NCBI GenBank assembly: GCA_012960465.1
Contig: DUBF01000047.1
Span: 1 to 34,978, forward strand
Length of the DNA stretch: 34,978 bases
From: Rhodospirillales bacterium
GTDB lineage: Bacteria > Pseudomonadota > Alphaproteobacteria > Rhodospirillales > UBA2165
Reading direction: 5' to 3'
Each line of letters starts with the position of its first letter. Position 1 is the stretch's first letter. The notes under the pieces were generated by a model. It was given only the letters and a program-made list of their open reading frames with translations. It was not told where the DNA came from and did no database searches. The position numbers and the translations under genes were made by a program. Positions 4,928 to 33,659 of the stretch are shown in pieces.

Positions 4928-5098
4928 TTGAATTCTATTTGAATTCCCAAATAATTATTTTGATATAATGATATAACAATTAGATCATTATTTGGTTTAA
5001 CGTCAAGAATATTGTGTTAAATTAAAACGGCAAACAGTGAGGATACCAAGATTACTCAATAAAAGTTTGATTTAACAAATTTAACAGTAGGAATAATC
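4928..5098. promoter_or_regulatory. Divergent promoter and operator region between regulator 1 and the ABC transporter
   Basis: This 171-base AT-rich gap separates two divergent genes. Inverted arms CCAAATAAT (4947-4955) and ATTATTTGG (4987-4995) are 31 bases apart, and AAATAATTATTT (4949-4960) is itself palindromic. ATTTGAATTC occurs twice, at 4926-4935 and 4937-4946, with an 11-base period. A candidate plus-strand promoter is TTGATA (4960-4965), 17 bases, GATCAT. A candidate minus-strand -35 is TTGACG (complement of 5001-5006). The promoter calls are weak. The symmetric elements are seen directly, but which protein binds is inference. Confidence 0.45.
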
Positions 5099-6016: not shown

Positions 6017-6020
6017 AAAA

Positions 6021-7957: not shown

Positions 7958-8937
7958 ACCAATTAAATTCCCAAAGCAACAATGGCAACATCCCTGCCTT
8001 GGAATGCAGAAATGTGAGTCAAACATTCATGATAAAGTCAGGTATCTTTGCTGAAAAACAACCTCTTAAGGCTGTTGAAGGCGTTAACCTTAGTGTTAAC
8101 CGCGGCGAAGTTATCGCGATTGTAGGAGAATCTGGCTGTGGAAAAACAACCCTAGCTAAAATGTTACTTGGCCTATTACCTCCTACAACTGGAGAAATTC
8201 TTCTGGATGGCATTCCGATAAACTCCGTCAGTATTTTAGACATAGCGCGGAAAGTTCAACCTGTATTCCAGGATCCCTATTCATCACTCAATCCAAGGAA
8301 AACCATTAAGTCTATCATCTCTTTACCTTTGAAAGTCCATAATATTGGCACTGAAATAGAGCAAAAAAATCGGGTCGAAGAGTATATGCGTCTGGTCGGT
8401 TTGCCAAATCGCCTCATTCATTCCTATCCAAATCAACTTTCTGGCGGTCAGCGCCAAAGGGTCGCAATTGCCCGGGCCCTAATTATGGAACCAAAAATCA
8501 TTGTATGTGATGAACCAACTTCTGCTTTGGACGTTTCCGTGCAGGCCCATATTCTTAACTTGCTCCAAGATTTGCGGAAAAAATTAAACTTAACTTACGC
8601 CTTTATAAGCCATGATCTTGCCGTTGTTGAACATTTAGCCGACTGGGTAGCCGTAATGTACCTAGGCCGTTTAATTGAATTTGGGAAAGCAACCGATGTA
8701 TTCAGAGACCCAAAGCATCCTTACACTCAAGCACTATTGGAATCGGTTTTAACTCCAGATGCCAGTCTAGGCCTTCCCGAAATTACTCTTGGACGTGGAT
8801 TACCCAATCCACTATCACCACCAAGTGGCTGCTATTTCCATCCACGCTGTCCCAAATCTAGTACAGAATGCAGTGAGAAAAGCCCCCTCTTAAAGAAAGA
8901 GAAAAACTATAGTATCGAATGCCACCTTTATAACTAA
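7954..8937 (+). CDS. ABC transporter ATP-binding protein, DppF/OppF type
   Basis: A 327-residue ATPase with Walker A GESGCGKTT, Q-loop PVFQDPYSSLNPR, signature LSGGQRQRVAIARAL, Walker B IIVCDEPTSALD and H-loop FISHDLAVV. The C-terminal oligo_HPY-type region contains CYFHPRCPKSSTEC. It is the last gene of the transporter operon, overlaps the previous one by ATGA, and is followed within a few bases by a hairpin terminator. Together with DppD it forms the heterodimeric motor of the importer. Confidence 0.93.
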   Translation: MNQLNSQSNNGNIPALECRNVSQTFMIKSGIFAEKQPLKAVEGVNLSVNRGEVIAIVGESGCGKTTLAKMLLGLLPPTTGEILLDGIPINSVSILDIARKVQPVFQDPYSSLNPRKTIKSIISLPLKVHNIGTEIEQKNRVEEYMRLVGLPNRLIHSYPNQLSGGQRQRVAIARALIMEPKIIVCDEPTSALDVSVQAHILNLLQDLRKKLNLTYAFISHDLAVVEHLADWVAVMYLGRLIEFGKATDVFRDPKHPYTQALLESVLTPDASLGLPEITLGRGLPNPLSPPSGCYFHPRCPKSSTECSEKSPLLKKEKNYSIECHLYN

Positions 8938-8940
8938 GAA

Positions 8941-8967
8941 AAAGCCGCCACGAAGCGTGACGGCTTT
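8941..8967. terminator. Bidirectional hairpin terminator between the transporter operon and binding protein 1
   Basis: The arms AAAGCCGCCACG and CGTGACGGCTTT form a 12-bp stem with one C-A mismatch and an AAG loop. Converging genes end on each side, at 8937 and 9000. On the minus strand the stem runs into TTTTTC, a good U-tract. On the plus strand the tail is CTTTATAA, which is weaker. It probably ends both transcripts. Confidence 0.82.
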
Positions 8968-8999: not shown

Positions 9000-10556
9000 C
9001 TACTTCCAATGCATATGATTTAACGTTGCTCCATAGGGCGAAAGCGAACCATCTTCTATTACCAAATCCTTGCTATGTACAAAAGACGTTGGCAATGTAG
9101 AAATTGGCAGAATATAATTCATTTGGTTAACTCTGTCATAACCAACCTTGTAAACAGCCTTTCTTTTCTCTGGATCTAAAATAGCGCCACCCTTAATTCG
9201 AGCTTTATTGATGATCTCATCATGCCAGTAGTTACGCGGGCTCCACTTTCCCTTGCGACCTTTCGCAAAGAAAACATTCAAGGTTGAAGATGCATCGGGT
9301 AGCCCTCCCGAACTCCATAGACTCACCAAAATTTCAAATTTACCTTGACGTTGCAATTTTCGATAAACTCCAAAGCTAACTGGTTTAACTTTGCCACGAA
9401 TTCCTATCTTCCGAAGCTCACCTGCGACAGCTACCGCAACGGGGCCCGCCGAACCCAAAGCCGTTATTGAAACTTCAAAGCCTTTAGGATAACCGGCCTC
9501 GGCCAAAAGTTTTTTTGCAGCTACTCTATTAAAGGCAGGGGGCTTGGTTGAAAAATCACAACCTTTCTGCACACGCAGACACATTGAATCCAAGGTTTTA
9601 ACCTTATCACCACCGGCAAGCACTGCACGAGCAACAGCCAATCGGTCAAATCCCATGGAGATCGCTTTACGAACACGTTGATCGGAGAGCGCTTTATTAC
9701 CAGAGCGATTAACAGAATCCATTGAAAGATAGGTATAAAGTAAACCGCCGGTAGCCGTAGCTGCTAATGCGGGATTTTTTTTCAGATCGTCAACTTGGTC
9801 TTTTGGAACACTGCGGATAAGATCCGTACCTCCCGTCAATAATTGAGCAATACGTGTTTGAACGTCTGGAATAGATTTCGCGATAATAGTTCTTATCTTT
9901 GGTTTAGGTTTCCATGTCCCACCGTGCTTGTACTCGTTGTTACGGACCAAAATAATACCTTTATTGGGGTCAACCTGCGTAACTTTCAGAGGGCCCGTGC
10001 CAATCGGTTTTTTGCCAAATGTACTTTTTACTTTAAGCTTGCCGTGCGTATCCGATGGATAAATCAAAATTGATTTTGCCAGCCTCATTAGACCAACCGC
10101 TGCAGGCCGTTTGGTATGGATACGTACTTTGTATTTGTTAATTTTTTCAACTTTTTTAATCCAGATGTAGTTGGTTTTAAAACGAATTCGGGTTTTTGGA
10201 TTAATCAACCAATTAATTGTATAAACCACATCATCAGCATCAAATTCCGACCCGTCATGAAATTTAACATCGTTTCTAAGTTCAAAATCCATGGTCTTAG
10301 CATCAATGCGTTTCCAGGATTTTGCCAGCAATGGGTAAAACTTGCCTGTAAAATCATCGTAGTGGACTAAACCATCGTAGACAATTCTGGCTGTTAGAGC
10401 GATCTCCGGTTTTGGATCATAAGCAAGGTCTATAACCGAAATTGGATCAGCAAACGCTATTCTCAGTGTATCTTTAGATTTTTGGGCAAGTGCATTGGTG
10501 GTAAAAACGATCGAACCAATAAGCGCAACAGCCAGGTTAATTTTTAATTTTCCCAT
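9000..10556 (-). CDS. Periplasmic substrate-binding protein, SBP family 5 (binding protein 1)
   Basis: A 518-residue DppA/OppA-type protein. A signal peptide covers residues 1-24, with predicted cleavage after ALA and mature start QKSKDTLRI. Family features include LAKSWKRIDAKTMDFELRNDVKFHDGSEFDADDVVYTINW (about 80-120, quoted as separate motifs SWKRI, VKFHDGS and ADDVVYT), then GTGPLKVTQVDPNKGI. It ends in His-Trp-Lys. It is one of three close paralogues in this window. No permease is encoded beside it on this strand, so it most likely delivers substrate to the transporter whose genes converge on it. It is the last gene after the amidohydrolase, 81 bases downstream of it. Confidence 0.92.
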   Translation of the reverse strand: MGKLKINLAVALIGSIVFTTNALAQKSKDTLRIAFADPISVIDLAYDPKPEIALTARIVYDGLVHYDDFTGKFYPLLAKSWKRIDAKTMDFELRNDVKFHDGSEFDADDVVYTINWLINPKTRIRFKTNYIWIKKVEKINKYKVRIHTKRPAAVGLMRLAKSILIYPSDTHGKLKVKSTFGKKPIGTGPLKVTQVDPNKGIILVRNNEYKHGGTWKPKPKIRTIIAKSIPDVQTRIAQLLTGGTDLIRSVPKDQVDDLKKNPALAATATGGLLYTYLSMDSVNRSGNKALSDQRVRKAISMGFDRLAVARAVLAGGDKVKTLDSMCLRVQKGCDFSTKPPAFNRVAAKKLLAEAGYPKGFEVSITALGSAGPVAVAVAGELRKIGIRGKVKPVSFGVYRKLQRQGKFEILVSLWSSGGLPDASSTLNVFFAKGRKGKWSPRNYWHDEIINKARIKGGAILDPEKRKAVYKVGYDRVNQMNYILPISTLPTSFVHSKDLVIEDGSLSPYGATLNHMHWK

Positions 10557-10637
10557 ATCATATCCCCCCGTAGTTAATATTAATATTTAAAAAAAATTTC
10601 TAAAATTATTATATAAGCCTCCATAAGATCAAAGTAA

Positions 10638-12074
10638 TCAAGCCACCTTTTCGGTATCCTGAACTAATTCATATACCTCTTTCTCTATAATGGTTCCTTC
10701 GAAAAATCTCGAATTCTGGCGCGTGTAAAGGTTAACAGGATTGGTAAACATAAAAGCTTCAAAATCTTGATCAGTGAAAAGCTCTTTCTCAACATTCTTA
10801 TAAGCATCAGGGACACAGTCTCTTATATCCTCTACGTCCCAATGCCCAATATCTGAACCGAAAAAAGCTTTGAGTTTAGCACCATAATGATTAATTTTTG
10901 TATTGAATGCCACGGCATTCATCGCATCATCCGCTTCACACCCAAAATAAAAAGGTTGAACAAAAAGATCACGAATATCCTCTTTTTTACTAATCTCACA
11001 TCTGCGAAATTCATCGAGTTCAATTTCTTCCCGTAATATACCACCCATCCGATTAGTTGTACTTTCTCCAATCAATGCGTCACCCGTCAAAATTCCATCG
11101 CCATATTTTTCAGCCATTTCTCGGATGAGATCAGTATCCAATTTTGCGGGGTCGAGATTACCCTTCATAAAATCAAGATTTCGTTTTTCCCAGTGCTCAA
11201 ATAAATCATTGTAAAGTTGAACAGCCCAACCAACGCCTCCTTCTAGAAAAGCAAAATTTAACTCTGGAAAGCGACGCGTCACACCATCCATAAAAATAGC
11301 ACGGCAAAAATAATCGCCAGCAGTTGAAAACCCACCAAGATGGTTAAAAACAAAATTTGATGGCGAAGAATGCCGACTGCCGCCGCCTCGGGCTGCAGTG
11401 TGACAGGCCACGGGCACTTTTAAGTCAACACAACGTTGCCAAACGGGATCATAGTCATAGAGGCCATCAAGTGCGACAGGGTTTACACGTTCGGTATACT
11501 TACCAAGCTCCGGAGCATGTTCTGCAATTTGAGGAACAGGCAACCTAACCTCAGTGCCAAAAGTTGCGGCCTTAAAACCTAGTTCACCTACTGCAAAATC
11601 AAGTTCACTAATAGCTTCTTCCGGCGAGAACATCGGGATAACACAATTCATAATCAAACGGTCCCCAACTTCGCTAAATATATCTGCCAACATCGTATTT
11701 AGTGCTCGATGACCCACTTGACGCATTTCATCATCCCGCACATGCATGAGTGGTAAACAAGCAGTTGAATAAACTATTCCTACATCAATACCAGCCTCAT
11801 CAAGGCGTTCACGATAAAGCTTTGGTAACATTGCCGTTGCACGGTCAATTGACTGTGGGCCAGAGGGCATGCCCCAGAAGATTTGCTGGCAATCTTGATG
11901 CTTCCAAGGCGATTCTAGATTTTCATATCGCAGGGCAACCTCTGGACCAGCAATCTTCTTAACATAATCCAAGATAGTCAAACGAGCTTCAAGTATATGG
12001 CCATCGCCATCAACAATAGGATGAGACACTTTAGATCGGATATCGGCTGCATCAAGTTGGGTTGACTTCAACAT
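10638..12074 (-). CDS. Amidohydrolase-family (decarboxylase/hydrolase) protein, 478 residues
   Basis: An amidohydrolase_2 type TIM-barrel protein related to the ACMSD and gamma-resorcylate decarboxylase group. Putative metal site: Asp24-x-His26 in VDGDGHILEA, His225 in VPVACHTAARGGGSRH and Asp408 in AFFGSDIGHWD. FLEGGVGWAVQLYNDLFEHW (277-296) is also characteristic. At 478 residues it is well over the roughly 330-residue LigJ or ACMSD size, with inserts around 55-75 and 300-390. It lies 40 bases after Rieske oxygenase 2 and is part of the operon that starts at the LigB-like dioxygenase. A non-oxidative decarboxylase or a C-C hydrolase of the pathway is plausible. The family is clear but the substrate is not. 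Confidence 0.85.
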   Translation of the reverse strand: MLKSTQLDAADIRSKVSHPIVDGDGHILEARLTILDYVKKIAGPEVALRYENLESPWKHQDCQQIFWGMPSGPQSIDRATAMLPKLYRERLDEAGIDVGIVYSTACLPLMHVRDDEMRQVGHRALNTMLADIFSEVGDRLIMNCVIPMFSPEEAISELDFAVGELGFKAATFGTEVRLPVPQIAEHAPELGKYTERVNPVALDGLYDYDPVWQRCVDLKVPVACHTAARGGGSRHSSPSNFVFNHLGGFSTAGDYFCRAIFMDGVTRRFPELNFAFLEGGVGWAVQLYNDLFEHWEKRNLDFMKGNLDPAKLDTDLIREMAEKYGDGILTGDALIGESTTNRMGGILREEIELDEFRRCEISKKEDIRDLFVQPFYFGCEADDAMNAVAFNTKINHYGAKLKAFFGSDIGHWDVEDIRDCVPDAYKNVEKELFTDQDFEAFMFTNPVNLYTRQNSRFFEGTIIEKEVYELVQDTEKVA

Positions 12075-12114
12075 AAATTTCTTAGCTCCTTAAATTAGGT
12101 AATTTATTATTTAA

Positions 12115-13317
12115 CTATTTCATGTAAGGCTCATCGATAGCATAGTTCCCGGCTTCCAACACAATTGGTAAATCATTTTTATTAAAACTAACTCCAACCG
12201 GATTTTTACCCTCCATAACGGCATCGACCTGCTTCTTTAAAAAATGACGCAACATTACAATTCCAACATCGGACTGACCAAGGTGTTCATTTGCGTGAAC
12301 AGCAATTTCTCCCTGCCCACTGTGAGCTTCATAGTCACCAGGAAATTTCTGATGTTCATCAGGAGTAAGCTCCTCCCAAAGCTTTCCATTTAGACGCGAA
12401 CGCCCTTTAGTCATTGCTCCTTCTTCCCGTGTGCGGCCACAAGTATATATTCGAAACGCGGTGTTATCGATTGGCAAAACCCAACCAATAGAGCTCACCC
12501 GAGCAAACTCACTAACACGTGGACTAGGTACAACCCGTAAAGTTGGCAAAACTGCCATTGTTATCCTACGATGTGTTCGATCACCATCAAGTGGTCGTAA
12601 CGAAGTTACCTTAATTCCAAGCTCAACTTGCTCAAACTCAACATCTGGCATAGCCCCCATCTGTTTAGTAAATTGAGTGCCACTAAATGATCCGTGTAAT
12701 ATGGGAACATGGTACGGATCGACAACATTTTCATAGTGTTGCAACCAATTACAGTCGACAATTACAGGTCCCCCACTTCCAACGCTTGTATCATTGGCTT
12801 CAAGAAATTCATCTTCCGCCAAAACCTCAAGGCATTCATATGTCGGCAAAATAGGTATTCTATCAGGTGGTCCCATATAGGCAAAAATCAAGCCGTAATG
12901 CTCCTTTAAAGGATACCAAGGTTGACGAATTTTCTGCTTACCACGGCCTCCATTGGGTTCGCAAGGCTGACTGGTACAGTGCCCCTCAACATCGAATGCC
13001 CAACCGTGATAACAACAACGAAGACCATCTTCATCAACCTTACCATAGTATAAAGTCGTACCCCTATGACAACAATTGGCGTGTACCAGACCAGGACGCC
13101 CCTGCCGATCTCGAAAAAGAATCAGATCTTCGCCAAGCGCGCTAACCTTTTTTGGCGTTTCAGTCGCGTGGGAATTCAGCCCAATTGGATGCCAATAGCG
13201 CCGCAATAGTTCACCCATCGGTGTGCCTCGCGTCACTTCGGTCATCGTCGGATCATAGGGCAAACTTTGATTTAAATAGCCACTGCCTGCATATTGTTCA
13301 TGATCAATGGTATCCAT
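12115..13317 (-). CDS. Rieske non-heme iron oxygenase (oxygenase 2)
   Basis: A 400-residue oxygenase. The N-terminal motif is GTPMGELLRRYWHP. The Rieske cluster site is Cys82-x-His84 within NCCHRGT and Cys101-x2-His104 within RCCYHGW, so an extra Cys neighbours each ligand pair. The catalytic iron triad is Asp200, His203 and His208 in VDPYHVPILH, which resembles oxygenase 1 more than 3 and 4. Late motifs include EHLGQSDVGIVMLRHFL. It follows the SnoaL-like gene by 16 bases, with a GGGGG-type ribosome binding site. It should need an external electron-transfer partner. The substrate is unknown; an aromatic carboxylate is likely from context. Confidence 0.9.
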   Translation of the reverse strand: MDTIDHEQYAGSGYLNQSLPYDPTMTEVTRGTPMGELLRRYWHPIGLNSHATETPKKVSALGEDLILFRDRQGRPGLVHANCCHRGTTLYYGKVDEDGLRCCYHGWAFDVEGHCTSQPCEPNGGRGKQKIRQPWYPLKEHYGLIFAYMGPPDRIPILPTYECLEVLAEDEFLEANDTSVGSGGPVIVDCNWLQHYENVVDPYHVPILHGSFSGTQFTKQMGAMPDVEFEQVELGIKVTSLRPLDGDRTHRRITMAVLPTLRVVPSPRVSEFARVSSIGWVLPIDNTAFRIYTCGRTREEGAMTKGRSRLNGKLWEELTPDEHQKFPGDYEAHSGQGEIAVHANEHLGQSDVGIVMLRHFLKKQVDAVMEGKNPVGVSFNKNDLPIVLEAGNYAIDEPYMK

Positions 13318-13333
13318 TTTAAACCCCCTATTT

Positions 13334-13774
13334 TTATTTATTTATGCGCTTTTTTAGCATAATAGGTTGCCCACGCTTATCGCTGATCTTCCAACCTACT
13401 TCAGTACGCAACATTTTATCTTTATAAAGGAAAATTACTCCAGGACCGTCAAGTGGTGCAGGACCCTCAACTTTTTCATTACTATCGTAACGATAAATTG
13501 TCACGTATTCGTTAGTTTCCACATGATCCTCATCTTGGATTATCACCGCAATATTAGTTACAATATGACGAATGACTAAATTATAACTACGTTCGTGCAT
13601 TGCCGTCAGTATTGCTTCACGACCTTGTAATTCATTGCCTTGTCGCTTCCAAATACCTTCTTCCGTAAAACAGTCAACCAAGTCGTCATAAAGACGTGCA
13701 TCAAGTGAATTATAAAATTTGTTAACGACTTGTGTACAATCCCATTCGATTGCACGTTCCTTCTCACGCTCCAT
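13334..13774 (-). CDS. SnoaL-like / NTF2-fold small protein
   Basis: A 146-residue protein with the start pattern of SnoaL-like NTF2-fold proteins: VVNKFYNSLDARLYDDLVDCFTEEGIWKR (20-48), then LQGREAILTAM and RHIVTNIAVIIQDEDHVETNEYVTIYR. Members are small isomerases, hydratases or dehydratases, or non-catalytic binding domains. The beta subunits of some ring-hydroxylating dioxygenases share the fold, so an accessory role for a neighbouring Rieske enzyme is possible. Phthalate-type oxygenases normally lack such a subunit. It lies between the binding-protein-fold gene and oxygenase 2 with short gaps of 19 and 16 bases. The ribosome binding site GAAGGAAG precedes the ATG at 13774. Confidence 0.78.
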   Translation of the reverse strand: MEREKERAIEWDCTQVVNKFYNSLDARLYDDLVDCFTEEGIWKRQGNELQGREAILTAMHERSYNLVIRHIVTNIAVIIQDEDHVETNEYVTIYRYDSNEKVEGPAPLDGPGVIFLYKDKMLRTEVGWKISDKRGQPIMLKKRINK

Positions 13775-13793
13775 CTTATACTTCCTTCAATCT

Positions 13794-14663
13794 CTAAACG
13801 GCGTTAACAACAGCGTGGTCATAATTCTCAGCGCCGATTTTATCTTCGGGGAAAATATCTCTTTCAATTACCCACTCACGCGTACCGTCAAATATTTCTT
13901 TTGAATACGGTTCAAATACAATGCGTTCTCCCGGACCAAAACGTCGAGTATCTGCCATATCGGTATAACGATCAGGTAATTCATTGAGAAAGTAATGAGT
14001 ATATAAGTCATGCCTTAGATCAATATCGGCTTGGGCTCGTTTTAGAGCCTTAAAATATTTAACAACGTCATCCCTGTTTACGTTAGGAGGTACCATTGTT
14101 GCGATCATAAATGTCGTATCAAGTATTTTTCTAAAACCAAGTTGTTCAAGTATATACATGGGTGCTCCAAATGCATTACCTGCAGGCACTTCACCATCCA
14201 CCAGCAGGTTCAAACGACCCATTAACAATCCTCCAAAGTGCAGGTTTATCTCCTCTGGTTTTAAAAACGGCTCTAATCCTTGAATAGTCGAATAATGGCT
14301 TCCTGATTGATATCCAACGGTAACAGGTATATTGGCAAGGTCTTCAGGCTTTTCTATGTTGGAGTCTGGTGCCACGAAAATACCCGAGGGCGTAACAGAA
14401 TAGGCGTCTCCCCACAACTGACCGTGCCCTGCGGAAGCTGCCATATTAACAGTCCAGTGGCATGCACAGCTAACATCAGCGTCTCGACCATCTTCAAATG
14501 TTTGATAGGCACCTTTTTTATTTTGCTGTCCTGCACCCACCGTTTTTGAAGGAGCTGTGTTTTTACCAAATACATAATCTAGGCCCTCGTCCTTAAAATA
14601 GCCTTTCTCCTCGGCGACCCATTCTTGTAATCGCATGTGTGGACGAATAACAAATTTAGTCAT
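13794..14663 (-). CDS. Binding-protein-fold (NMT1/SsuA-like) protein without signal peptide; decarboxylase candidate
   Basis: A 289-residue protein that starts directly with MTKFVIRPHMRLQEWVAEEKGYFKDEGLDYVFGK, quoted here for its family feature VAEEKGYFKDEGL, typical of NMT1/SsuA-like periplasmic binding proteins. There is no signal peptide or lipobox, so it should stay in the cytoplasm. From memory, 4,5-dihydroxyphthalate decarboxylase (Pht5) belongs to this fold group, which fits an operon with phthalate-type Rieske oxygenases and an extradiol dioxygenase. No matching SsuB/SsuC transporter genes are present. The ribosome binding site AGGAGAG lies seven bases before the ATG. The fold assignment is fairly sure; decarboxylase function is inference. 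Confidence 0.72.
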   Translation of the reverse strand: MTKFVIRPHMRLQEWVAEEKGYFKDEGLDYVFGKNTAPSKTVGAGQQNKKGAYQTFEDGRDADVSCACHWTVNMAASAGHGQLWGDAYSVTPSGIFVAPDSNIEKPEDLANIPVTVGYQSGSHYSTIQGLEPFLKPEEINLHFGGLLMGRLNLLVDGEVPAGNAFGAPMYILEQLGFRKILDTTFMIATMVPPNVNRDDVVKYFKALKRAQADIDLRHDLYTHYFLNELPDRYTDMADTRRFGPGERIVFEPYSKEIFDGTREWVIERDIFPEDKIGAENYDHAVVNAV

Positions 14664-14692
14664 ATTTACTCTCCTATCTAATAGTTCATTCT

Positions 14693-15991
14693 TTATTCTG
14701 CTGCAGACTTAATATTTCCCCCTAAAAATAAATTCTTAGCCCCGTCTGAGAAAGCTACATCGTCATCAAGCAAAATTGATACCGACCGCACATTGTATAA
14801 ATGTCCGCGAGACGCCGCCAAAGGCTCTTTGCCCTCTGTAAGATCCTTTGCTAACTGGATCAGGCATTTTCGGAATTTTATAACCGCTGCATCAGATGTA
14901 CCTAAACGTTCTTTGGAACGATCAATAATAGGACCCATACTCTCCTGCACCGCTGCATCTTGATTTGGAATTCCACTAATACCTGTGAATGTTTGGGTGC
15001 GCTGAACGTCTCTATCAATTAAATAATTATTTCTACTATTTTGGAGTGGGTGGTAATTCTCATCAATTGGCCCCCACATGCCATTTTGACCGCCAGCAAA
15101 TTCACGTTCTTCTTTTGTATAATCACGGGTCGGATTTACGCCAAATGACCATGTCCAGGTATTCTCATTATCAATCGGAACCCAGGCGTGACCCGCATAA
15201 GGTTGACCTTCGGAAGTCTCAAAATCCCCAACAGGCGGAATTATTGTATAATATGGAAAAAGGTACTGAGTAATCCGCCAATAAAATTTTCCAGGATCAG
15301 CATTACGTCGGGCCGCTACCCTAAGTCCATAATCCACTTCTTCTATTTCAAAAACCGGGTGTCTATCCTGAGCATGATACTTATTTCGTGGGATAGGTGA
15401 TTTTTCATTAACCACTTGTCCAATAGAGCGGTTATGTAAAAAAGAAATATGACTTGAATCAATACCTCCTTCAACGGCCTGCACCCAATTATTTTCTTGC
15501 AAACGCTTTGTCGCCGTTCGCCTTGCTTCCGGTAAATAGGCCCATTCCAAATCTGGGAGTTCTGGCTTCAATCCCACAGGCCCCATATAAACATAAATTA
15601 TACCTCCACGCTCAAACGTAGGGTAAGATGTCAGTTTAACTTTATTTTTAAAATTTGTTTTTTCAGGCTCCGATGGCATATCAATACAATTACCGGCAAC
15701 GTCAAATTTCCAACCATGGTATACACATCTAATGCCACATTCTTCGTTACGTCCATAGAATAGGTTAACGCGTCGATGTGGACAGTAAGCATCAAGAATA
15801 CCAATAGAGCCATTACTATCTCGGAAACAAACCAAGTCCTCACCCATTAATCGCAAACTTACCGGATTACAATCAGGTGTCGGCAATTCTTCAGATATTA
15901 GGGCAGGCGTCCAAAAACGTCTTAACAACTCGCCCATTGGAGAGCCGCGATCAACACGTGTTAGGAGTTCATTATCCTCTTTTGATAACAT
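14693..15991 (-). CDS. Rieske non-heme iron oxygenase (oxygenase 3)
   Basis: A 432-residue phthalate-type oxygenase component. It has SPMGELLRRFWTP at the N terminus, the [2Fe-2S] ligands Cys70/His72 (YCPHRR) and Cys89/His92 (RCVYHGW), and the iron triad Asp178, His181 and His186 in GGIDSSHISFLH. ERLGTSDAAVIKFRKCL lies near the C terminus. It is more like oxygenase 4 than 1 or 2, sharing KxNFKxKV, the ID(S/T)SH triad form and the TGI(S/N)GI region. It begins seven bases after the LigB-like dioxygenase stop, so hydroxylation and ring opening are co-expressed. Confidence 0.91.
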   Translation of the reverse strand: MLSKEDNELLTRVDRGSPMGELLRRFWTPALISEELPTPDCNPVSLRLMGEDLVCFRDSNGSIGILDAYCPHRRVNLFYGRNEECGIRCVYHGWKFDVAGNCIDMPSEPEKTNFKNKVKLTSYPTFERGGIIYVYMGPVGLKPELPDLEWAYLPEARRTATKRLQENNWVQAVEGGIDSSHISFLHNRSIGQVVNEKSPIPRNKYHAQDRHPVFEIEEVDYGLRVAARRNADPGKFYWRITQYLFPYYTIIPPVGDFETSEGQPYAGHAWVPIDNENTWTWSFGVNPTRDYTKEEREFAGGQNGMWGPIDENYHPLQNSRNNYLIDRDVQRTQTFTGISGIPNQDAAVQESMGPIIDRSKERLGTSDAAVIKFRKCLIQLAKDLTEGKEPLAASRGHLYNVRSVSILLDDDVAFSDGAKNLFLGGNIKSAAE

Positions 15992-15998
15992 TTATTCC

Positions 15999-17015
15999 TC
16001 ATTCTTGCGCCCAAGTTGCAAACGCCATAGCGTTGCCAGTGCCGGCGTCCGACCGATAACACGGCACATAATCGAGTAAATTCATTTTAAATCCTGTTTC
16101 AGCCAATATTCCCGCGGTAACGATCCAGTTTTTTGTCTCTGATGTACCAGACCTAAACATAGAATTTGGTTCATCAAACATGGTCTGAAAATCTCCTTCT
16201 TGCATGGCATTCAAAATGCGGTGATCAAATTCTTCGTCAATCACAAAATGACTGACCCCGCCTGAAGCACACACGGCAACTTTCTTATCGCTATCCCAAT
16301 TTTTAATGGCCCGCCCGATCATGAGGCCAAATTCATAGCATCGTTTTGGCTTAGCTTGGTTGGGAGGAAAAAATGTATTTATAAGCACGGGAACTAGTGG
16401 AATTGGTTTATCATTCAATAGTCGCCGATAGACAAAACCAACGGCATGACCGATGCCCTTAGGTCCTTTTGGACCAACCGGAGGTGACTTCGAAGCAGAA
16501 ATATCAAATTCATCTTCAATAGCTTGCTCAATAATTCTACCTGCCAGCTCTGCCTCGCATGGATAAATTTGGGCTTTAGGCGGATGGGTTGCCCGCATAC
16601 TATATGCTAGACCCGGAGCCATACTCAAAGCCTTCTCCTCATCGTACGCTGTATTGATCACCTCATCACCATAATAAATTGAAAAGGCAGGCTGTATATC
16701 TTCCATGAACCATTCACGTTGATCATCACCAACGAGTAAAATTACATCAGGTTTAGTAGCTGCCAACTTCTCTGTTAAATAGTCTAACTGTTTCTGACAC
16801 CGACCATGACGCTCAACACGAACACTAATAACATTCTGTTCTGATAAATTTTCTGCTTTGCGCAATTTTAATAATTCATCGTAATTATAGGTCCCCCCAC
16901 GGAACGCATGGTTTGGGTTTTTCTTATCTGCCTCTGCCCGCAAATCCCATTTTTCGGGCGGAGTAGACAATAAAGGCCCATGTGCAGTACCAAAACCTAG
17001 AACAATTTCTGCCAT
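15999..17015 (-). CDS. LigB-type class III extradiol ring-cleavage dioxygenase
   Basis: A 338-residue enzyme of the LigB superfamily, expected to open a catecholic or gallate-type ring with Fe(II) and O2. It shows LGFGTAHGPLLSTPP with His12, a candidate second ligand His70 (VERHGRC), LLVGDDQREWF, the likely catalytic His190 (GIGHAVGFVYRRLL), ASGGVSHFVIDEEFDH with a likely Glu ligand at 261 or 262, and LDYVPCYRSDAGTGNAMAFATW at the end. Ligand assignments are by recalled LigB positions. No LigA-like small subunit is encoded nearby. The gene follows binding protein 2 and precedes oxygenase 3 by seven bases. Gallate, a methyl gallate or protocatechuate are possible substrates. Confidence 0.86.
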   Translation of the reverse strand: MAEIVLGFGTAHGPLLSTPPEKWDLRAEADKKNPNHAFRGGTYNYDELLKLRKAENLSEQNVISVRVERHGRCQKQLDYLTEKLAATKPDVILLVGDDQREWFMEDIQPAFSIYYGDEVINTAYDEEKALSMAPGLAYSMRATHPPKAQIYPCEAELAGRIIEQAIEDEFDISASKSPPVGPKGPKGIGHAVGFVYRRLLNDKPIPLVPVLINTFFPPNQAKPKRCYEFGLMIGRAIKNWDSDKKVAVCASGGVSHFVIDEEFDHRILNAMQEGDFQTMFDEPNSMFRSGTSETKNWIVTAGILAETGFKMNLLDYVPCYRSDAGTGNAMAFATWAQE

Positions 17016-17086
17016 TTTAAATTTTTCCCTTTATTATTTCGCCACGTTTTTCGCAGGAATTCCTCACGTGTTGCTCCAAACCTCAA

Positions 17087-18625
17087 TTATTTCCAATACA
17101 TTGTGTATGCAGAAACACCGAACGTCTCTGTCTCGCCGCCATCAATGACCAAATCTTTTGTGTGAAGGAAGGTTGGTGGATTTGGTGTAATTGGCATCAT
17201 ATAGGCTTCGGTATTGTTCCGATCAAATAACGTTGAATAAATCTTACGTCGTTCAGTATCGTTAAAAGAAGCTTCAGCCTTTGGAATAGTTTTAGAAATT
17301 ACTTTGTCTCCATAGTAATTTCGAGCACCCTTGCCATGAAAAAATGTGGCCGTAGACTGTACGTCTGGAATGCCACCCGACGCCCATTGATTTACAAGAA
17401 TCTGAATTTTACCTTGGCGTTGTTTTTTTCGATAAGCTCCGAAAGTTAACTTGGAAACACTAGCTTTAATACCAATCTTACGTAAATCTCCTGAAACAGC
17501 CACTGGAATAATACGGGGTAACGTCGATGTGATATTTACTTCAAAGCCATTCGGGAAACCGGCTTGAGCTAGCAAATTTTTTGCGGCAGTTGGATTATAA
17601 GCCGGTGGCTTGGTGGTAAAACCACATCCGCGCTGCCATTTCTGACACATTGCATTCATCTGCTCCATTTTGCTACCGCCAGGGATAAGCGTTCTCTTGA
17701 TCTCCTCTCGATTTATCGCCATCATTATAGCCTTACGGACACGTTTATCTTGAAGTGCCTTATGGCCAGATTTCCCGATAGAATCCATAGCTATATAATA
17801 AAATAATTGTCCTTTTTGCGTAGTCACAGTCAATGCCGGATTATTTCTTAATGAATCCAGTTGGTCTTTGGGTACACGATACATTAGATCAAGACCACCA
17901 GTTAGTAACTGAGCTATTTGCGTCTGGACATCGGGCATTGGTAAAACATGAATACGACCAATTCTAGCAGCAGGCCGCGCTGGACCGCTGTGCTTAAAGT
18001 TTGGATTAGCCTTTAATACAACTCCTTTGTTTGGATCTACAGATTCGACCATATAGGGTCCCGTACCAATACCTTTTTTTCCAAAAGTGCTTTTTACTTT
18101 TAGTGCGCCATGAACATCTGATGGATATATAGGTGTTGATATAGCAAACCTCGCCAAAGCCACTGCAGCTGGCCTCTTGGAATGTATGCGGACAGTATAT
18201 TTATCTATCTTTTCTGCATTTTTAATCCAAAGGTAACGGGTCTTAATTCTAAATTTGACTTTTGGATTTGCAAACCAATTAATTGTATACACCACATCGT
18301 CTGCATCGAACTCCGATCCATCATGAAATTTGACGTCATCACGTAATTTAAATTCAAGAGTTTTCGCATTAATCCTTTTCCAGGATTTTGCTAGTGCTGG
18401 CCGAAAGGTATTTGTTTTTCTATCATAGGCCAAAAGATTATCATAAACGGCTCTAGATAAAAAACCAGTCTCGGGCTTAGGATCGTGTGTAGCATCCACG
18501 ATCGATATTGGATCATAAAACCCAATTCGGAGAGTATCTTTGGACTTTTGAGCCCACACAGGGCTTGCTACAATACCTAGTACGAATACCACGGATAATA
18601 ATTCAGTTAACTTAAACTTTTGCAT
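17087..18625 (-). CDS. Periplasmic substrate-binding protein, SBP family 5 (binding protein 2)
   Basis: A 512-residue DppA/OppA-type protein. The signal peptide ends at about residue 25 (SPVWA) and the mature protein starts QKSKDTLRIGF, nearly identical to its two paralogues here. It shares SWKRINAKTLEFKLRDDVKFHDGSEFDADD-type sequence (motifs SWKRI, VKFHDGS, DADDVVYT) and GTGPYMVESVDPNKG, and it ends Tyr-Trp-Lys. It lies 61 bases after GntR regulator 2 and 71 bases before the LigB-like gene, so uptake, regulation and ring cleavage are linked. It probably uses the transporter encoded at 5.1-8.9 kb. Confidence 0.92.
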   Translation of the reverse strand: MQKFKLTELLSVVFVLGIVASPVWAQKSKDTLRIGFYDPISIVDATHDPKPETGFLSRAVYDNLLAYDRKTNTFRPALAKSWKRINAKTLEFKLRDDVKFHDGSEFDADDVVYTINWFANPKVKFRIKTRYLWIKNAEKIDKYTVRIHSKRPAAVALARFAISTPIYPSDVHGALKVKSTFGKKGIGTGPYMVESVDPNKGVVLKANPNFKHSGPARPAARIGRIHVLPMPDVQTQIAQLLTGGLDLMYRVPKDQLDSLRNNPALTVTTQKGQLFYYIAMDSIGKSGHKALQDKRVRKAIMMAINREEIKRTLIPGGSKMEQMNAMCQKWQRGCGFTTKPPAYNPTAAKNLLAQAGFPNGFEVNITSTLPRIIPVAVSGDLRKIGIKASVSKLTFGAYRKKQRQGKIQILVNQWASGGIPDVQSTATFFHGKGARNYYGDKVISKTIPKAEASFNDTERRKIYSTLFDRNNTEAYMMPITPNPPTFLHTKDLVIDGGETETFGVSAYTMYWK

Positions 18626-18686: not shown

Positions 18687-19457
18687 TCAGCAGCAGATAG
18701 CGTCTTCCAAATATCCTTTTTCTCTAATTTTACGATGTTGATTTCGAATATGTTCAATATGATCTCGCATAAACTCGTGTGCTCCAGCCCCATTGCGGTC
18801 TTTAATGAGATCTAATAAAGTACGGTGAGATCTGATTACATTCTCAGCAACCTCGGGTTGAGGAATGGTGTTGTGGGGCGGCCAAATCACATACCGCAAA
18901 CTGTTAAGTTGCATATGCAACGCTTGGCTATGTGCCGCCTCTGCAATCGCCGTGTGGAATTTTAAACTTGAATTGCTGAATGCAACAGTATCATCAATAA
19001 GCTCACTAGCTTCTTTGAGAAGCATTTCCAATTTTTCAATGTCCTCTTTAGTAGCATATTCTGCCGCGCGCTCTGCCGCCAACCCCTCAAGTACAGATTG
19101 AATTTCGAGGACCCCATCTTCCGGAATTTCAGATAAACAATGTTGAATAGCTAACGTTTCTCCAATAGCATTAACGTCGCCTTCAGCAATGGTGGCGCCG
19201 CCTTTAACACCAACTTTAATTTCAACTGCACCCATCGCAGCTAGAGACCGTAACGCTTCACGCGCCGTATTGCGGCTAACATTAAAATTCTCAGAAATAT
19301 CGCGTTCTGAACCAAGAAAATCACCTGAACGCATTGCTCCAGCAAGAATTCCATCACGAATTTGGGCCACTAATGCATCTGCGTTTGTGACAGGTTTGCG
19401 TAAAGAGTTAATCTTTGTAACGAATTTTTGGCGTTTACGTTCTTGAATTTGTATCAT
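18687..19457 (-). CDS. GntR family regulator, FadR/FCD subfamily (regulator 2)
   Basis: A 256-residue regulator. The winged helix spans about 22-92 (ADALVAQIRDGILAG, SERDISENFNVSRNTAREAL, GAVEIKVGVKGGATI). The FCD domain follows, with KFHTAIAEAAHS, SLRYVIWPPH and RDHIEHIRNQH supplying candidate metal-binding His residues. It ends Ile-Cys-Cys, like regulator 1. AAGG lies six bases before the ATG. A TTGACA-type promoter directly upstream contains a perfect CCTAACGTTAGG palindrome, repeated in front of binding protein 3. This makes autoregulation plus control of that gene likely. Confidence 0.92.
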   Translation of the reverse strand: MIQIQERKRQKFVTKINSLRKPVTNADALVAQIRDGILAGAMRSGDFLGSERDISENFNVSRNTAREALRSLAAMGAVEIKVGVKGGATIAEGDVNAIGETLAIQHCLSEIPEDGVLEIQSVLEGLAAERAAEYATKEDIEKLEMLLKEASELIDDTVAFSNSSLKFHTAIAEAAHSQALHMQLNSLRYVIWPPHNTIPQPEVAENVIRSHRTLLDLIKDRNGAGAHEFMRDHIEHIRNQHRKIREKGYLEDAICC

Positions 19458-19481: not shown

Positions 19482-19514
19482 CCTAACGTTAGGTCTGTTT
19501 ACAAAAAGTGTCAA
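19482..19514 (-). promoter_or_regulatory. Regulator 2 promoter with palindromic operator CCTAACGTTAGG
   Basis: Read on the minus strand, TTGACA (complement of 19509-19514) is followed after 17 bases by TAACGT (19486-19491). The perfect 12-bp palindrome CCTAACGTTAGG (19482-19493) covers this -10 position. The same -35, spacing and palindrome recur upstream of binding protein 3. The -10 matches consensus only 3/6, so the promoter call rests on the conserved geometry. The likely binder is regulator 2, whose start codon is 25 bases away. Confidence 0.68.
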
Positions 19515-19529
19515 TAATTCTTATAAATA

Positions 19530-20852
19530 TCAATTACTAGCGGAATTTAAAAGACCAGTTGGATCAACACAACGACGAAGTTGTTCTGCATAGGCATCTT
19601 GCCATTTAGACGCACGATCAGATACAAAATCACCAGCACGGGCTCGTAGAAAACCATTCTCACTATTTAAGCCTGGCGGCTGCTTTCCCCCTTTGTCCAT
19701 TTCTTTTGCAGCTTTTAACAACGCCTTGCGTGTTTGTGTGATCATCAAATCGCTGGGCGCTAGATGCTCAAAGTTATGATCTGTGATTGGCCCCATGCTC
19801 TCAGTGATTGCCTGATCTTGTAGATGAATCCCATTAATCCCAGTAAAGGAAGAATTACGTTGAGCTTTACGATCAATTTTATAATCATTTGAGTTGTTGG
19901 AGGTCAACCTCCAACGGCCATACCATGACGTATCACGAGGCTTGTAATCCATTCCCAATTTGATCCCCGGTAGAGGCTTGCCATCTTTATCTATTCGCAG
20001 CCCCTGTGCATTTCCTTTCCATGAAATATGAACAAACATAGTGTGTTTATCATCCATAGGGACCCAAGCGCGGGCGATAATGTGCTCCGCTAAATCACCA
20101 TCCGGCGGCATGGTCCAAAAAGGGAAGAGGAATTGCGCCATGCGCCAATAAAGCTTATCTGGCTCTCCAGTATCCCGATAGGCACCGTACATTGTTCCCC
20201 ACTCAGTATCTGCGACGTGCAAATCAGGTGCTCGGTTTATTAGTTGGTATTTACCAGGATTATCCGCGGGAACTTGGTCTAGTTCAATACTACCAGCATG
20301 CAGCCAACTAAAATGAGAGGTATCTATATCTCCTTCTAATGCTTGCAACCAATTACATTCCCGTTGGACAAAAATAATACGCACCTCACCTTCTTCCAGG
20401 AGAGCTGGCTCTATTCCCGGAAGTGCTGGTATATTCTGCTGATCTCCCATAAATACCCAAATTAAGCCATTACTTTCTCTCGTTTGATATGCTTTAGAAT
20501 GAACTTTATGTTTAAAATTCTGCTTTTCTGGAACGTTTGGCATGTCCAGACAATTGCCATCAACATCAAACTTCCAACCATGATAAACACAGCGGATACC
20601 ACCCTTTTCATTTCGGCCAAAAAATAGTGAGGCACAGCGATGTGGACACCGATGATCCATTACCCCAACTTTTCCAGAGTTATCTCTAAATGCCACAAGT
20701 TTTTCACCCAATAGCATCAAACGAATAGGATCTCCATCTGCAACCAATTCGGACGATTTAGCAGCAGGTATCCAATACTTACGCATCAAGTTACCCATCA
20801 TAGTACCGTCACCAACTTGCGTTAGAATTTCACTATCCCTTGGGGTAACCAT
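19530..20852 (-). CDS. Rieske non-heme iron oxygenase (oxygenase 4)
   Basis: A 440-residue phthalate-type oxygenase component with TMMGNLMRKYWIP at the N terminus, cluster ligands Cys69/His71 (RCPHRC) and Cys88/His91 (RCVYHGW), and iron ligands Asp177, His180 and His185 in GDIDTSHFSWLH. The TGINGIHLQDQAITESMGPITDH region closely matches oxygenase 3, quoted as TGINGI and ESMGPI, so the two are probably recent paralogues with related substrates. GAGG lies eight bases before the ATG at 20852. It follows the hairpin after binding protein 3 and lies upstream of GntR regulator 2. No strong promoter of its own was seen, so it may depend on read-through. Confidence 0.91.
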   Translation of the reverse strand: MVTPRDSEILTQVGDGTMMGNLMRKYWIPAAKSSELVADGDPIRLMLLGEKLVAFRDNSGKVGVMDHRCPHRCASLFFGRNEKGGIRCVYHGWKFDVDGNCLDMPNVPEKQNFKHKVHSKAYQTRESNGLIWVFMGDQQNIPALPGIEPALLEEGEVRIIFVQRECNWLQALEGDIDTSHFSWLHAGSIELDQVPADNPGKYQLINRAPDLHVADTEWGTMYGAYRDTGEPDKLYWRMAQFLFPFWTMPPDGDLAEHIIARAWVPMDDKHTMFVHISWKGNAQGLRIDKDGKPLPGIKLGMDYKPRDTSWYGRWRLTSNNSNDYKIDRKAQRNSSFTGINGIHLQDQAITESMGPITDHNFEHLAPSDLMITQTRKALLKAAKEMDKGGKQPPGLNSENGFLRARAGDFVSDRASKWQDAYAEQLRRCVDPTGLLNSASN

Positions 20853-20931
20853 GATATTTACCTCGAGAACACCCTTTGTTTTGACCTAGCCACCGATTGC
20901 ATGCGAAGGTCATCCTCAACAAAAAAGAAAA

Positions 20932-20969
20932 AACACCGCATAATCTATGCCAATAGATTATGCGGTGTT
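20932..20969 (-). terminator. Strong intrinsic terminator after binding protein 3
   Basis: Perfect 16-bp arms AACACCGCATAATCTA and TAGATTATGCGGTGTT surround a TGCCAA loop. On the minus strand the stem continues into TTTTTTCTTTTTT, a strong U-tract. It lies 16 bases after the stop of binding protein 3. In operons of this kind such a hairpin commonly lets the binding protein be made in excess over downstream genes (inference). Confidence 0.92.
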
Positions 20970-20984
20970 ATCTTCTAACCAACA

Positions 20985-22544
20985 TTACTTCCAGCTAACT
21001 CGATTTAATTCAAAACCTTCTGGATTTTTATGACCACCATGTATAACTATGTCTTTCGTATGAGCCAGTACAACCGGCAGCGGAACCAAAGGCATCATAT
21101 AAGCTTGATCATTAACCCGATCAAAAGCTGCTTGATATACAGCTTTCCGCTTGTTGAGATCAAAAGTCACTTGACCGGCAGCATGCGCCGCCGTCAATTC
21201 TTTGTCACCCATGTAATTCCGGGAACCCTTCATGAAGAAAAATCCAGCAGTTACATCAACGTCAGGGGCAGCCCCACCATTGTCCCAAAGGCTCACAAAC
21301 ATCTGAACCTTACCTCTGGCTCGTTTCTTAACAAATCCCCCAATTTTTAAACTATCTATTTTGGCTTTAATACCAACTTTACGAAGTTGACCAGATACGG
21401 CTATGGCAATTTGTCGAGATGGACCCCAAGTCGTGATTTCAACATCAAAACCATTTGAAAGCCCTGCTTCAGCAAGTAATTTCTTAGCCTTAGCCAAGTT
21501 ATGCTTGGTAGGCGGAACAGAGGAAACACAACCAACATGCCAATCGTGACAAATGGCACGCTGTAACGGCTGGCCATGCAATTGAGATGGTACAAGCGCC
21601 TTTACCAAGGCTTTCCGATCAATAGCGTGTAATACTGCTTGACGAATTTTTTTGTTTTTAAAATGTCCAAATCCCGAACGGTCAGCAGAATCAAATAAAA
21701 CATAAACAAAAGATACTGTGGGTGTAACAGAAATTGAGAAATTTGGATTTTCTGCTAAATTTTCACCTTGATCTTTTGGAACATTATACATGATATCCAA
21801 ACCACCAGCCATCAATTCTGCGATCTGTGTCTGTTTATCTGGAATAGGCCGGGCTATAAGTTTCTTAACAATACCAGCAGGTTTGCCGCCATTATAGTAA
21901 TTTTCATTTTTTTCGAAGAATATCCCTTTATTAGGATCAACTTTAGTAACTTTATAAGGACCTGTTCCAACAGGATTACGACCGAAGTCACTTTTTACTT
22001 TTAGCGCTCCATGGACATTCGAAGGATAAATCGGTAATCCTGTCGCAAGCCTTGATAATATCGGTGCGTAGGGTCGTTTACTTTTAAAGCGAACGGTATA
22101 CTTATCCACTTTTTCAATGCTCGCTATCCAGCCAAAACGCGACCCTTTAAAGCGAAACTTGGTTTTTGGATCTGTCACGAATTTAACCATGTATACAACG
22201 TCATCGGCATCAAAGTCAGAACCATCATGAAACTTCACACCTTTACGGAGACTGAACTCCATTGTCAATTTGTTGATGCGTTTCCAGGAAGTAGCCAATT
22301 GAGGTTTATAAATCCGCTTTTCAGCATCATAAAACAATAGCATATCAAAAACCGCGGGCGCTGTTAGATTAGTTTCTGGATGTGGATTGTAGATCCGATC
22401 CAATATTTTAATCGGCTGATAGAGCCCAAAGCGAACCGTATCTTTAGATTTCTGTGCAAACGCACTGCCGACTAAAAAGGCGCTAATTCCGGCTATCATT
22501 GCACCTGTTACAGCTAGACTTGTGAAAGTCCTGAATATACTCAT
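20985..22544 (-). CDS. Periplasmic substrate-binding protein, SBP family 5 (binding protein 3)
   Basis: A 519-residue DppA/OppA-type protein. Its signal peptide is longer than in its paralogues (about 30 residues, ending GSAFA) and is followed by QKSKDTVRFGLY. It shares SWKRINKLTMEFSLRKG, VKFHDGSDFDADDVVY and GTGPYKVTKVDPNKGI, and it ends Ser-Trp-Lys. It diverges from the cupin gene and is driven by a promoter carrying the same palindrome as the regulator 2 gene. A strong terminator follows. It probably supplies the single transporter encoded in this window with a related ligand. Confidence 0.92.
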   Translation of the reverse strand: MSIFRTFTSLAVTGAMIAGISAFLVGSAFAQKSKDTVRFGLYQPIKILDRIYNPHPETNLTAPAVFDMLLFYDAEKRIYKPQLATSWKRINKLTMEFSLRKGVKFHDGSDFDADDVVYMVKFVTDPKTKFRFKGSRFGWIASIEKVDKYTVRFKSKRPYAPILSRLATGLPIYPSNVHGALKVKSDFGRNPVGTGPYKVTKVDPNKGIFFEKNENYYNGGKPAGIVKKLIARPIPDKQTQIAELMAGGLDIMYNVPKDQGENLAENPNFSISVTPTVSFVYVLFDSADRSGFGHFKNKKIRQAVLHAIDRKALVKALVPSQLHGQPLQRAICHDWHVGCVSSVPPTKHNLAKAKKLLAEAGLSNGFDVEITTWGPSRQIAIAVSGQLRKVGIKAKIDSLKIGGFVKKRARGKVQMFVSLWDNGGAAPDVDVTAGFFFMKGSRNYMGDKELTAAHAAGQVTFDLNKRKAVYQAAFDRVNDQAYMMPLVPLPVVLAHTKDIVIHGGHKNPEGFELNRVSWK

Positions 22545-22604
22545 TAACTTACTCCCTTATAAATCTGAATTTTTATAATTTGATACAACTAGAATTTAAT
22601 TAGA

Positions 22605-22654
22605 CTCAATTTGATAGATATCCTAACGTTAGGATTGTTGGAATTGAGAGTCAA
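22605..22654 (-). promoter_or_regulatory. Binding protein 3 promoter with palindromic operator
   Basis: On the minus strand TTGACT (complement of 22649-22654) is followed after exactly 17 bases by TAACGT (22626-22631), inside the 14-bp palindrome TCCTAACGTTAGGA (22621-22634). A second, outer inverted repeat, CTCAATT (22605-22611) and AATTGAG (22642-22648), is nearly concentric. The layout repeats that of the regulator 2 promoter. Being in the divergent gap, it may also affect the cupin gene. Confidence 0.68.
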
Positions 22655-33101: not shown

Positions 33102-33629
33102 CTATTCAATTTCAGCCTTTAGTATAGAGTTCTTTAAATCTCCTAATAACTTGTGCAGATCTAATGCACTTTCTCGATCTAAATTAGCCATAAGACTATT
33201 GACCCAAGAACTATGGGCTGGGATCATTTTATCGAGTGCATTTTGACCCTCCGAAGTAAGGCTTACATGCTGTACGCGCCGATCTTCAGTTGAAGGATCT
33301 CGTTTAATCAAATTATCATCGACTAATCGATCAACCAAAGGCGTAATATTCCCATTTGTCACCATCAAACGGTTTGATAGTTCGCGCATTGGCTGCCCAT
33401 CTGGCGCCCGGTCAATTTGCGCCAAAACATCAAAACGAGGTAACGTAGTATCAAAATCATCCCGCAAATTTTTTCTAACTCTACGCTCAATTAAATGTGT
33501 ACAAGTCAGGAGCCTCAGCCAAATCCGAAGATCAAGCTGTTCGTCATCGCTAAGGCCTGTCTCATAGTCACTCTTCGGATTATTAACCTTGTTTTTCCTA
33601 TCTGTTTTCGATAATGGTAAATCACCCAT
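33102..33629 (-). CDS. MarR family transcriptional regulator
   Basis: A 175-residue winged-helix regulator: DLRIWLRLLTCTHLIERRVRKNL, then RFDVLAQIDRAPDGQPMRELSNRLMVTNGNITPLVDRLVDDNLIKRDPSTEDRRVQHVSLTSEGQ, where TNGNITPLVDRL is the recognition helix and DRRVQHVSLT the wing. The ATG at 33629 is used; the frame also allows a TTG at 33647. It precedes the CoA ligase gene by 20 bases, so it likely senses an aromatic acid or its CoA ester and represses both genes through repeats just upstream. Confidence 0.9.
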   Translation of the reverse strand: MGDLPLSKTDRKNKVNNPKSDYETGLSDDEQLDLRIWLRLLTCTHLIERRVRKNLRDDFDTTLPRFDVLAQIDRAPDGQPMRELSNRLMVTNGNITPLVDRLVDDNLIKRDPSTEDRRVQHVSLTSEGQNALDKMIPAHSSWVNSLMANLDRESALDLHKLLGDLKNSILKAEIE

Positions 33630-33659
33630 AGATTCTAACCACCCCAATTAACTTATTAC

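Follow-up and report, generated by a model that had tools for sequence, protein, structure and literature searches.

A candidate palindromic operator of a GntR/FCD regulator at the same position in two promoters of an aromatic ring-cleavage gene cluster

Which protein, if any, reads a palindrome that recurs at the same place in two otherwise dissimilar promoters, and which genes would it control? The question is raised by contig DUBF01000047.1 of an uncultured Rhodospirillales bacterium (assembly GCA_012960465.1), where the 12-bp word CCTAACGTTAGG covers the -10 boxes of a GntR/FCD regulator gene (regulator 2) and of a solute-binding protein gene (binding protein 3). We analysed the whole 34,978-nucleotide stretch, hereafter the window, and compared its genome with genomes and loci of relatives, labelled G and L, respectively. 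The evidence makes it highly likely that CCTAACGTTAGG serves regulator 2 as its operator; by covering the -10 box, this regulator is predicted to repress its own gene with the operon behind it, as well as binding protein 3. The elements concerned are the following:

19482..19493, no strand: operator 1, the 12-bp perfect palindrome CCTAACGTTAGG, overlapping the -10 box in the promoter of regulator 2
19486..19514, minus strand: regulator 2 promoter, TTGACA, 17 bases, TAACGT (19514 to 19486)
22622..22633, no strand: operator 2, CCTAACGTTAGG, or TCCTAACGTTAGGA when taken as 14 bp, overlapping the -10 box in the promoter of binding protein 3
22626..22654, minus strand: binding protein 3 promoter, TTGACT, 17 bases, TAACGT (22654 to 22626)
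18687..19457, minus strand: regulator 2, with a GntR winged helix and an FCD domain, the presumed repressor acting on both operators

The distance from the -35 element to the palindrome is equal in both window promoters, and the original prediction of one palindrome at one position in two TTGAC(A/T)-N17-TAACGT promoters was borne out in coordinates and spacing. Outside these shared elements the two sites are unlike, with 23% identity over the 39 bases upstream of -35, 47% over the 15-base spacer, and 37% over the 60 bases downstream, which upholds the accompanying claim that selection, rather than recent duplication, accounts for the likeness. The two copies in these promoters are the only exact ones in the 3,743,986-base genome, for which ~0.2 would be expected from base composition. 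Within the window, two copies at one mismatch or fewer compare with a mean of 0.03 in shuffled sequence, and none of 100 shuffles reaches two.

Across related genomes, the word accompanies the regulator. A search of 60 genomes with regulator 2 yielded matches at E 1e-20 or better in 18 (its own included), with close orthologues only in G001, G002, and G005 (68-73% identity), and no further close orthologue was found among 317 genomes of the order, the next best match reaching 47%. The exact word was found five times in 24 family genomes, twice in the window genome and once each in G001, G002, and G005, i.e., always in the four genomes bearing regulator 2 or a close orthologue and never in the other 20. 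In all five copies (the zero-mismatch composites of the 24 genomes), TTGAC lies at the identical distance, an arrangement with a chance probability of ~4e-14 on either strand when TTGAC is taken to occur at 0.001 per position and strand. Pairwise identities among the five are 15-36% over the 39 bases upstream of -35, 27-45% over the 60 bases downstream, and 47-73% over the 15-base spacer, where AAC followed by A or C precedes the palindrome; an A follows the palindrome in every copy. A self-promoter operator is kept by regulator 2 and its orthologues: the exact word lies directly upstream of three of the four regulators (window, G001, G002), extending to 26 perfect bases in G001, and the fourth, from G005, is preceded by CCTAACAATAGG, with two mismatches. 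The exact G005 copy is located 29 bases ahead of an HpaB-type hydroxylase gene. G003 encodes an hpaB-type gene with 94% and 96% identity to that of G005 (in two contig pieces), preceded by a decayed palindrome without a -35 element, and has no close regulator 2 orthologue. Another G005 copy, with three mismatches (C21:41081), lies inside a TetR-type open reading frame (ORF) and was dropped.

By its domains, regulator 2 belongs to the FadR/FCD subfamily of the GntR superfamily (Pfam FCD 9.9e-22 and GntR 1.5e-13, both past the curated cut-offs), and among NCBIfam equivalogs it reaches no named GntR regulator, the best being NanR at 87.6 bits against a cut-off of 260. Its AlphaFold2 model (mean predicted local distance difference test score 85) has the GntR/FCD fold, and the best Foldseek matches are GntR/FCD regulators, the matches including both the FadR and VanR groups, with query template modelling scores of 0.36-0.59 among the matches listed. 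From residue 95 on, the effector domain of the model has seven helices, a domain with seven helices in the FadR group and six in the VanR group. Residues H168, H211, and H233 are invariant in 27 homologues; in metal-binding FCD regulators, three histidines plus an Asp or Asn hold the metal. Equally invariant are E51, R62, and R66, which map by eye onto Glu34, Arg45, and Arg49, the residues through which FadR contacts DNA (PMC4494728).

Paralogous regulators are preceded by related words. Upstream regions were read for 29 homologues (28 search rows plus L101), and 20 of these carry a similar 12-base word upstream of themselves, largely by clade: regulator 2 and its three orthologues with the words given above, G015 with CCTATCGATAGG, G018, G022, and G023 with CCTATCGATGGG, one G011 copy with CATATCGATAGT, a second G001 copy with CCTATCGTTAGT, G020 with CCTATCATTATA, and, in the clade of regulator 1, the nine other rows with TATATCATTATA or a near form. 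Among these nine are regulator 1 itself, a paralogue encoded in the window with 40% identity to regulator 2, and G003, whose form, TATATCATTTTT, was identified by eye, outside the script's top two. Words track the clades of the protein tree (27 rows, some of them long, with 8 of 24 inner branches well supported), and recognition helices pair with words as SRNTARE with CCTAAC, SRNTARD with CCTATC, SRIT(V/I)RD with TATATC, and SRVTARD or SRMTARD with CCTATC or CATATC. The G020 gene, which has an internal stop codon, breaks this simple code by joining SRISVRD to CCTATCATTATA, and since the homologue rows are related, the pairings reflect few independent changes of helix and word. In a published correlation analysis, Asn after the key Arg prefers A/T (PMC4494728, section 10); N63 of regulator 2 agrees with this preference, an agreement that is no test of it. 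Regulator 1 itself is accompanied by the following element:

4964..4979, minus strand: operator-like word TTGTTATATCATTATA, before regulator 1 (4169-4927), the only exact copy in the genome

This word sits between regulator 1 and a divergent permease gene, the same or a near word precedes relatives of regulator 1, and it is probably the operator of regulator 1. A third paralogous regulator in G001 (L034 10968-11768), the one with CCTATCGTTAGT, lies directly before an amidohydrolase gene, and no such regulator gene stands ahead of the similar amidohydrolase gene of the window (10638-12074). The AACGTT centre of CCTAACGTTAGG recalls LacI-family operators. As the word accompanies a GntR/FCD gene whose paralogues are preceded by related words, a LacI-like reading was dropped, and the same two observations argue for the GntR/FCD regulator at 18687-19457 as the binder, as originally proposed.

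Four further features bear on what the two operators would control:

9000..18625, minus strand: genes after regulator 2, presumed co-transcribed, with gaps of 7-81 bases
8941..8967, minus strand: terminator-like hairpin after binding protein 1, presumed operon end
20985..22544, minus strand: binding protein 3, a family 5 extracellular solute-binding protein (Pfam SBP_bac_5 2.6e-76), presumed target of operator 2
20932..20969, minus strand: terminator-like hairpin of 17 pairs with a T tail, after binding protein 3

From regulator 2 onwards, the genes encode binding protein 2, a LigB-type dioxygenase, a LigXa_C Rieske oxygenase, an NMT1-like protein, a SnoaL-like protein, a Rieske oxygenase, an amidohydrolase, and binding protein 1. 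With one strand maintained to 9000, short gaps throughout, and a hairpin at 8967-8941, the suggested coupling of the palindrome to a ring-cleavage operon is plausible. Gene order after the G001 regulator is, by eye, comparable (Rieske, LigB, Rieske, SnoaL-like, Rieske), and the G002 set is shorter. Promoter and terminator scans were overall near chance (40 vs. 33.6 and 15 vs. 12.8, respectively), and single entries weigh by form and place only. Because the 17-pair hairpin follows binding protein 3, operator 2 would mainly serve that one gene. The Rieske gene at 19530-20852 was rejected as an operator 2 target, with a terminator-like hairpin in between and no copy of the word at one mismatch or fewer ahead of it.

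The cluster includes three related family 5 binding proteins (9000-10556, 17087-18625, and 20985-22544, the first two sharing 45% and 47% identity with binding protein 3) and, by eye, a single permease/ATPase set (5099-8937). Upstream of their orthologues of binding protein 3, G003, G005, and G008 share a promoter-like stretch, GTCAGTATAA (L037 5128-5400, L105, L106, L107), with a near form in G001; nothing like it was seen before the window gene. Control of the divergent cupin gene, which had been considered as a further target, was not supported. The operator 2 palindrome ends 136 bases before the cupin start codon, and the plus-strand reading (22601-22633) offers TAGACT-N17-TAACGT toward the gene, a single case of a -35 core within one mismatch; such cores occur at any given position with a frequency of 1.8%. 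Operator 2 could possibly act as a bidirectional promoter toward the cupin gene, and bidirectional promoters have been described in bacteria (PMC12825309, PMC10268837).

The regulon had been predicted to be small, and this held: the genome contains two exact copies, a relaxed search with the 14-base form is no richer in the word than in its reversed control, and no wider regulon is visible. In the proposed genome scan at one mismatch or fewer, the two exact copies lie in promoters, and of the three one-mismatch places one is inside a 453-amino-acid transporter-like ORF (C62), one within an ORF that we take to be gyrB (C88), and one over the stop codon of an ORF (C223). When the composite promoter was searched at two mismatches or fewer in the 24 genomes, the places found comprised the five exact copies, the window sites counted twice more when read on the plus strand, and a further three, all rejected. 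G000:C11 faces a contig end where no ORF of at least 60 amino acids is listed, G001:C18 has two palindrome mismatches and ends 2 bases before an ORF start, too close for a normal start, and G017:C116 lies within a 385-amino-acid ORF.

Several observations weigh against regulator 2 as the reader of this word. Word counts do not rise above those of the reversed control: 5 places against 12 in the window genome at one mismatch or fewer; five exact occurrences of each across the 24 family genomes, those of the control in four other genomes; 98 against 128, 53 against 106, 57 against 73, and 41 against 122 for the 14-base form at three mismatches or fewer, the word being rarer in all four genomes searched; and 10 against 9 for the composite promoter. 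The argument therefore rests on the position of the exact copies, not on their number. TAACGT agrees with the -10 consensus TATAAT at three of six positions, and the promoter scan, which needs four of six, lists neither promoter. Without a GT-N2/3-AC core, CCTAACGTTAGG also breaks the TKGT/ACMA operator rule of the FadR subfamily; since BioR, a known member, breaks the rule as well (PMC4494728), membership of regulator 2 is still compatible with this failure. Eight distant homologues of the 29 have no related word, and L101 is doubtful. The co-occurrence involves four regulators, all of one genus, from assemblies that are 57-99% complete, and the absence of the regulator from G003 may reflect incompleteness of that assembly (82% complete). 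Finally, operator 2 lies in the promoter of binding protein 3, but in G001, G003, G005, and G008 the 260 bases upstream of the orthologues (80-82% identity) hold no match to the word better than four mismatches, and among the five genomes compared binding protein 3 is a presumed target only in that of the window.

Could another protein be responsible? Both the MarR protein at 33102-33647 and regulator 1 are encoded in the window and might control both promoters; MarR proteins also use palindromes over -10 boxes, and regulator 1 shares 40% identity with regulator 2. However, the word tracks regulator 2 (present in four of four genomes with it and in none of 20 without), regulator 1 and its relatives have their own word before themselves, and no other copy at one mismatch or fewer occurs in the window, hence none before the MarR gene. 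We regard control by another regulator, for which these two were the candidates compared, as unlikely. A dual site, at which regulator 2 would activate binding protein 3 while repressing itself, has precedent in that some FCD regulators also activate, as FadR does at fabA. Yet the five exact copies all lie over the -10 box in an identical register, which suits exclusion of the polymerase, and a dual role seems very improbable. Consistent with this, the palindromes through which AlkR and Atu1419 exert repression overlap -10 boxes (PMC12042122, PMC7797058). The equal number of exact occurrences of the word and its control would suit chance, or a recent promoter duplication, with no regulator involved; the low flank identity of the two window sites (23% and 37%) and the presence of the same composite before orthologues and an unrelated G005 gene leave this explanation with hardly any credibility.

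Repression by regulator 2 is thus the reading we prefer. A regulator 2 dimer would bind the palindrome with one winged helix per CCTAAC half, covering the -10 box and keeping RNA polymerase off. Without inducer, its own gene and the downstream aromatic ring-cleavage operon to 9000 would be repressed, and binding protein 3 would be repressed separately through the second copy; release would follow when the FCD domain binds its inducer, for which the gene content suggests, as a guess, an aromatic substrate or intermediate. What the sequences show directly is the word, its position, its conservation alongside the orthologues, and the related words of the paralogues, whereas binding, repression rather than activation, operon extent, and ligand are inferred from these and from gene content. 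The extra target appears to differ by species, being binding protein 3 in the window genome and the HpaB-type hydroxylase gene in G005, a picture of targets gained and lost in which one and the same combination of promoter and operator precedes unrelated genes, depending on the species. The palindrome gives the unstudied regulator of this aromatic (LigB/Rieske) cluster of uncultured bacteria a precise, testable candidate operator, and the paralogues provide a small natural series for reading the DNA specificity of FCD regulators with BioR-like sites. More tentatively, and with considerable doubt, regulator 2 and its paralogues might be neighbouring repressors with separate operators that are readable from a few recognition-helix residues and share a BioR-like TATC core outside the GT-N-AC rule, operator 2 additionally serving as a -10 box in both directions so that one dimer would close both.

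Among known systems, VanR of Caulobacter, likewise of the GntR/FCD type, represses vanillate O-demethylase genes and has a 12-bp palindrome close to the -10 box, although of a different word. That word occurred in none of the papers listed (20 of 38); in the literature searched, neither CCTAACGTTAGG nor CTAACGTTAG was found as the start of a word, a search that would miss copies within longer printed sequences, and no paper retrieved by subject combined four of the five topics sought. Atu1419 of Agrobacterium fabrum (VanR group), which is among the best Foldseek matches of the regulator 2 model, is a GntR/FCD repressor of hydroxycinnamate genes with short palindromes of identical sequence, two of which overlap -10 boxes, but it differs in its palindrome, ATGTATACAT, in forming a tetramer able to loop DNA, and in having six effector-domain helices compared to seven in the regulator 2 model (PMC7797058). 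AlkR of Pseudomonas aeruginosa SJTD-1, also a GntR/FCD repressor, has a single palindrome spanning the -10 region of an oxygenase gene, but that palindrome is ATTGTCAGACAAT and acyl-CoA releases the protein (PMC12042122). The alphaproteobacterial biotin repressor BioR, of the FadR subfamily of GntR, is autoregulated at the palindrome TTATMKATAA (PMC4494728; PMC4554459) and, as with CCTAACGTTAGG, its box falls outside the subfamily rule. In this published box, by which the two are likened here, the inner eight bases fit TATCGATA within the paralogue word CCTATCGATAGG, whereas in the regulator 2 word the fifth base of each half is A instead of T, with C/G on the outside; moreover, BioR controls biotin genes and regulator 2 lies in an aromatic cluster. 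Set beside these systems, regulator 2 would be an ordinary kind of local repressor, autoregulated, with a well-supported predicted operator.

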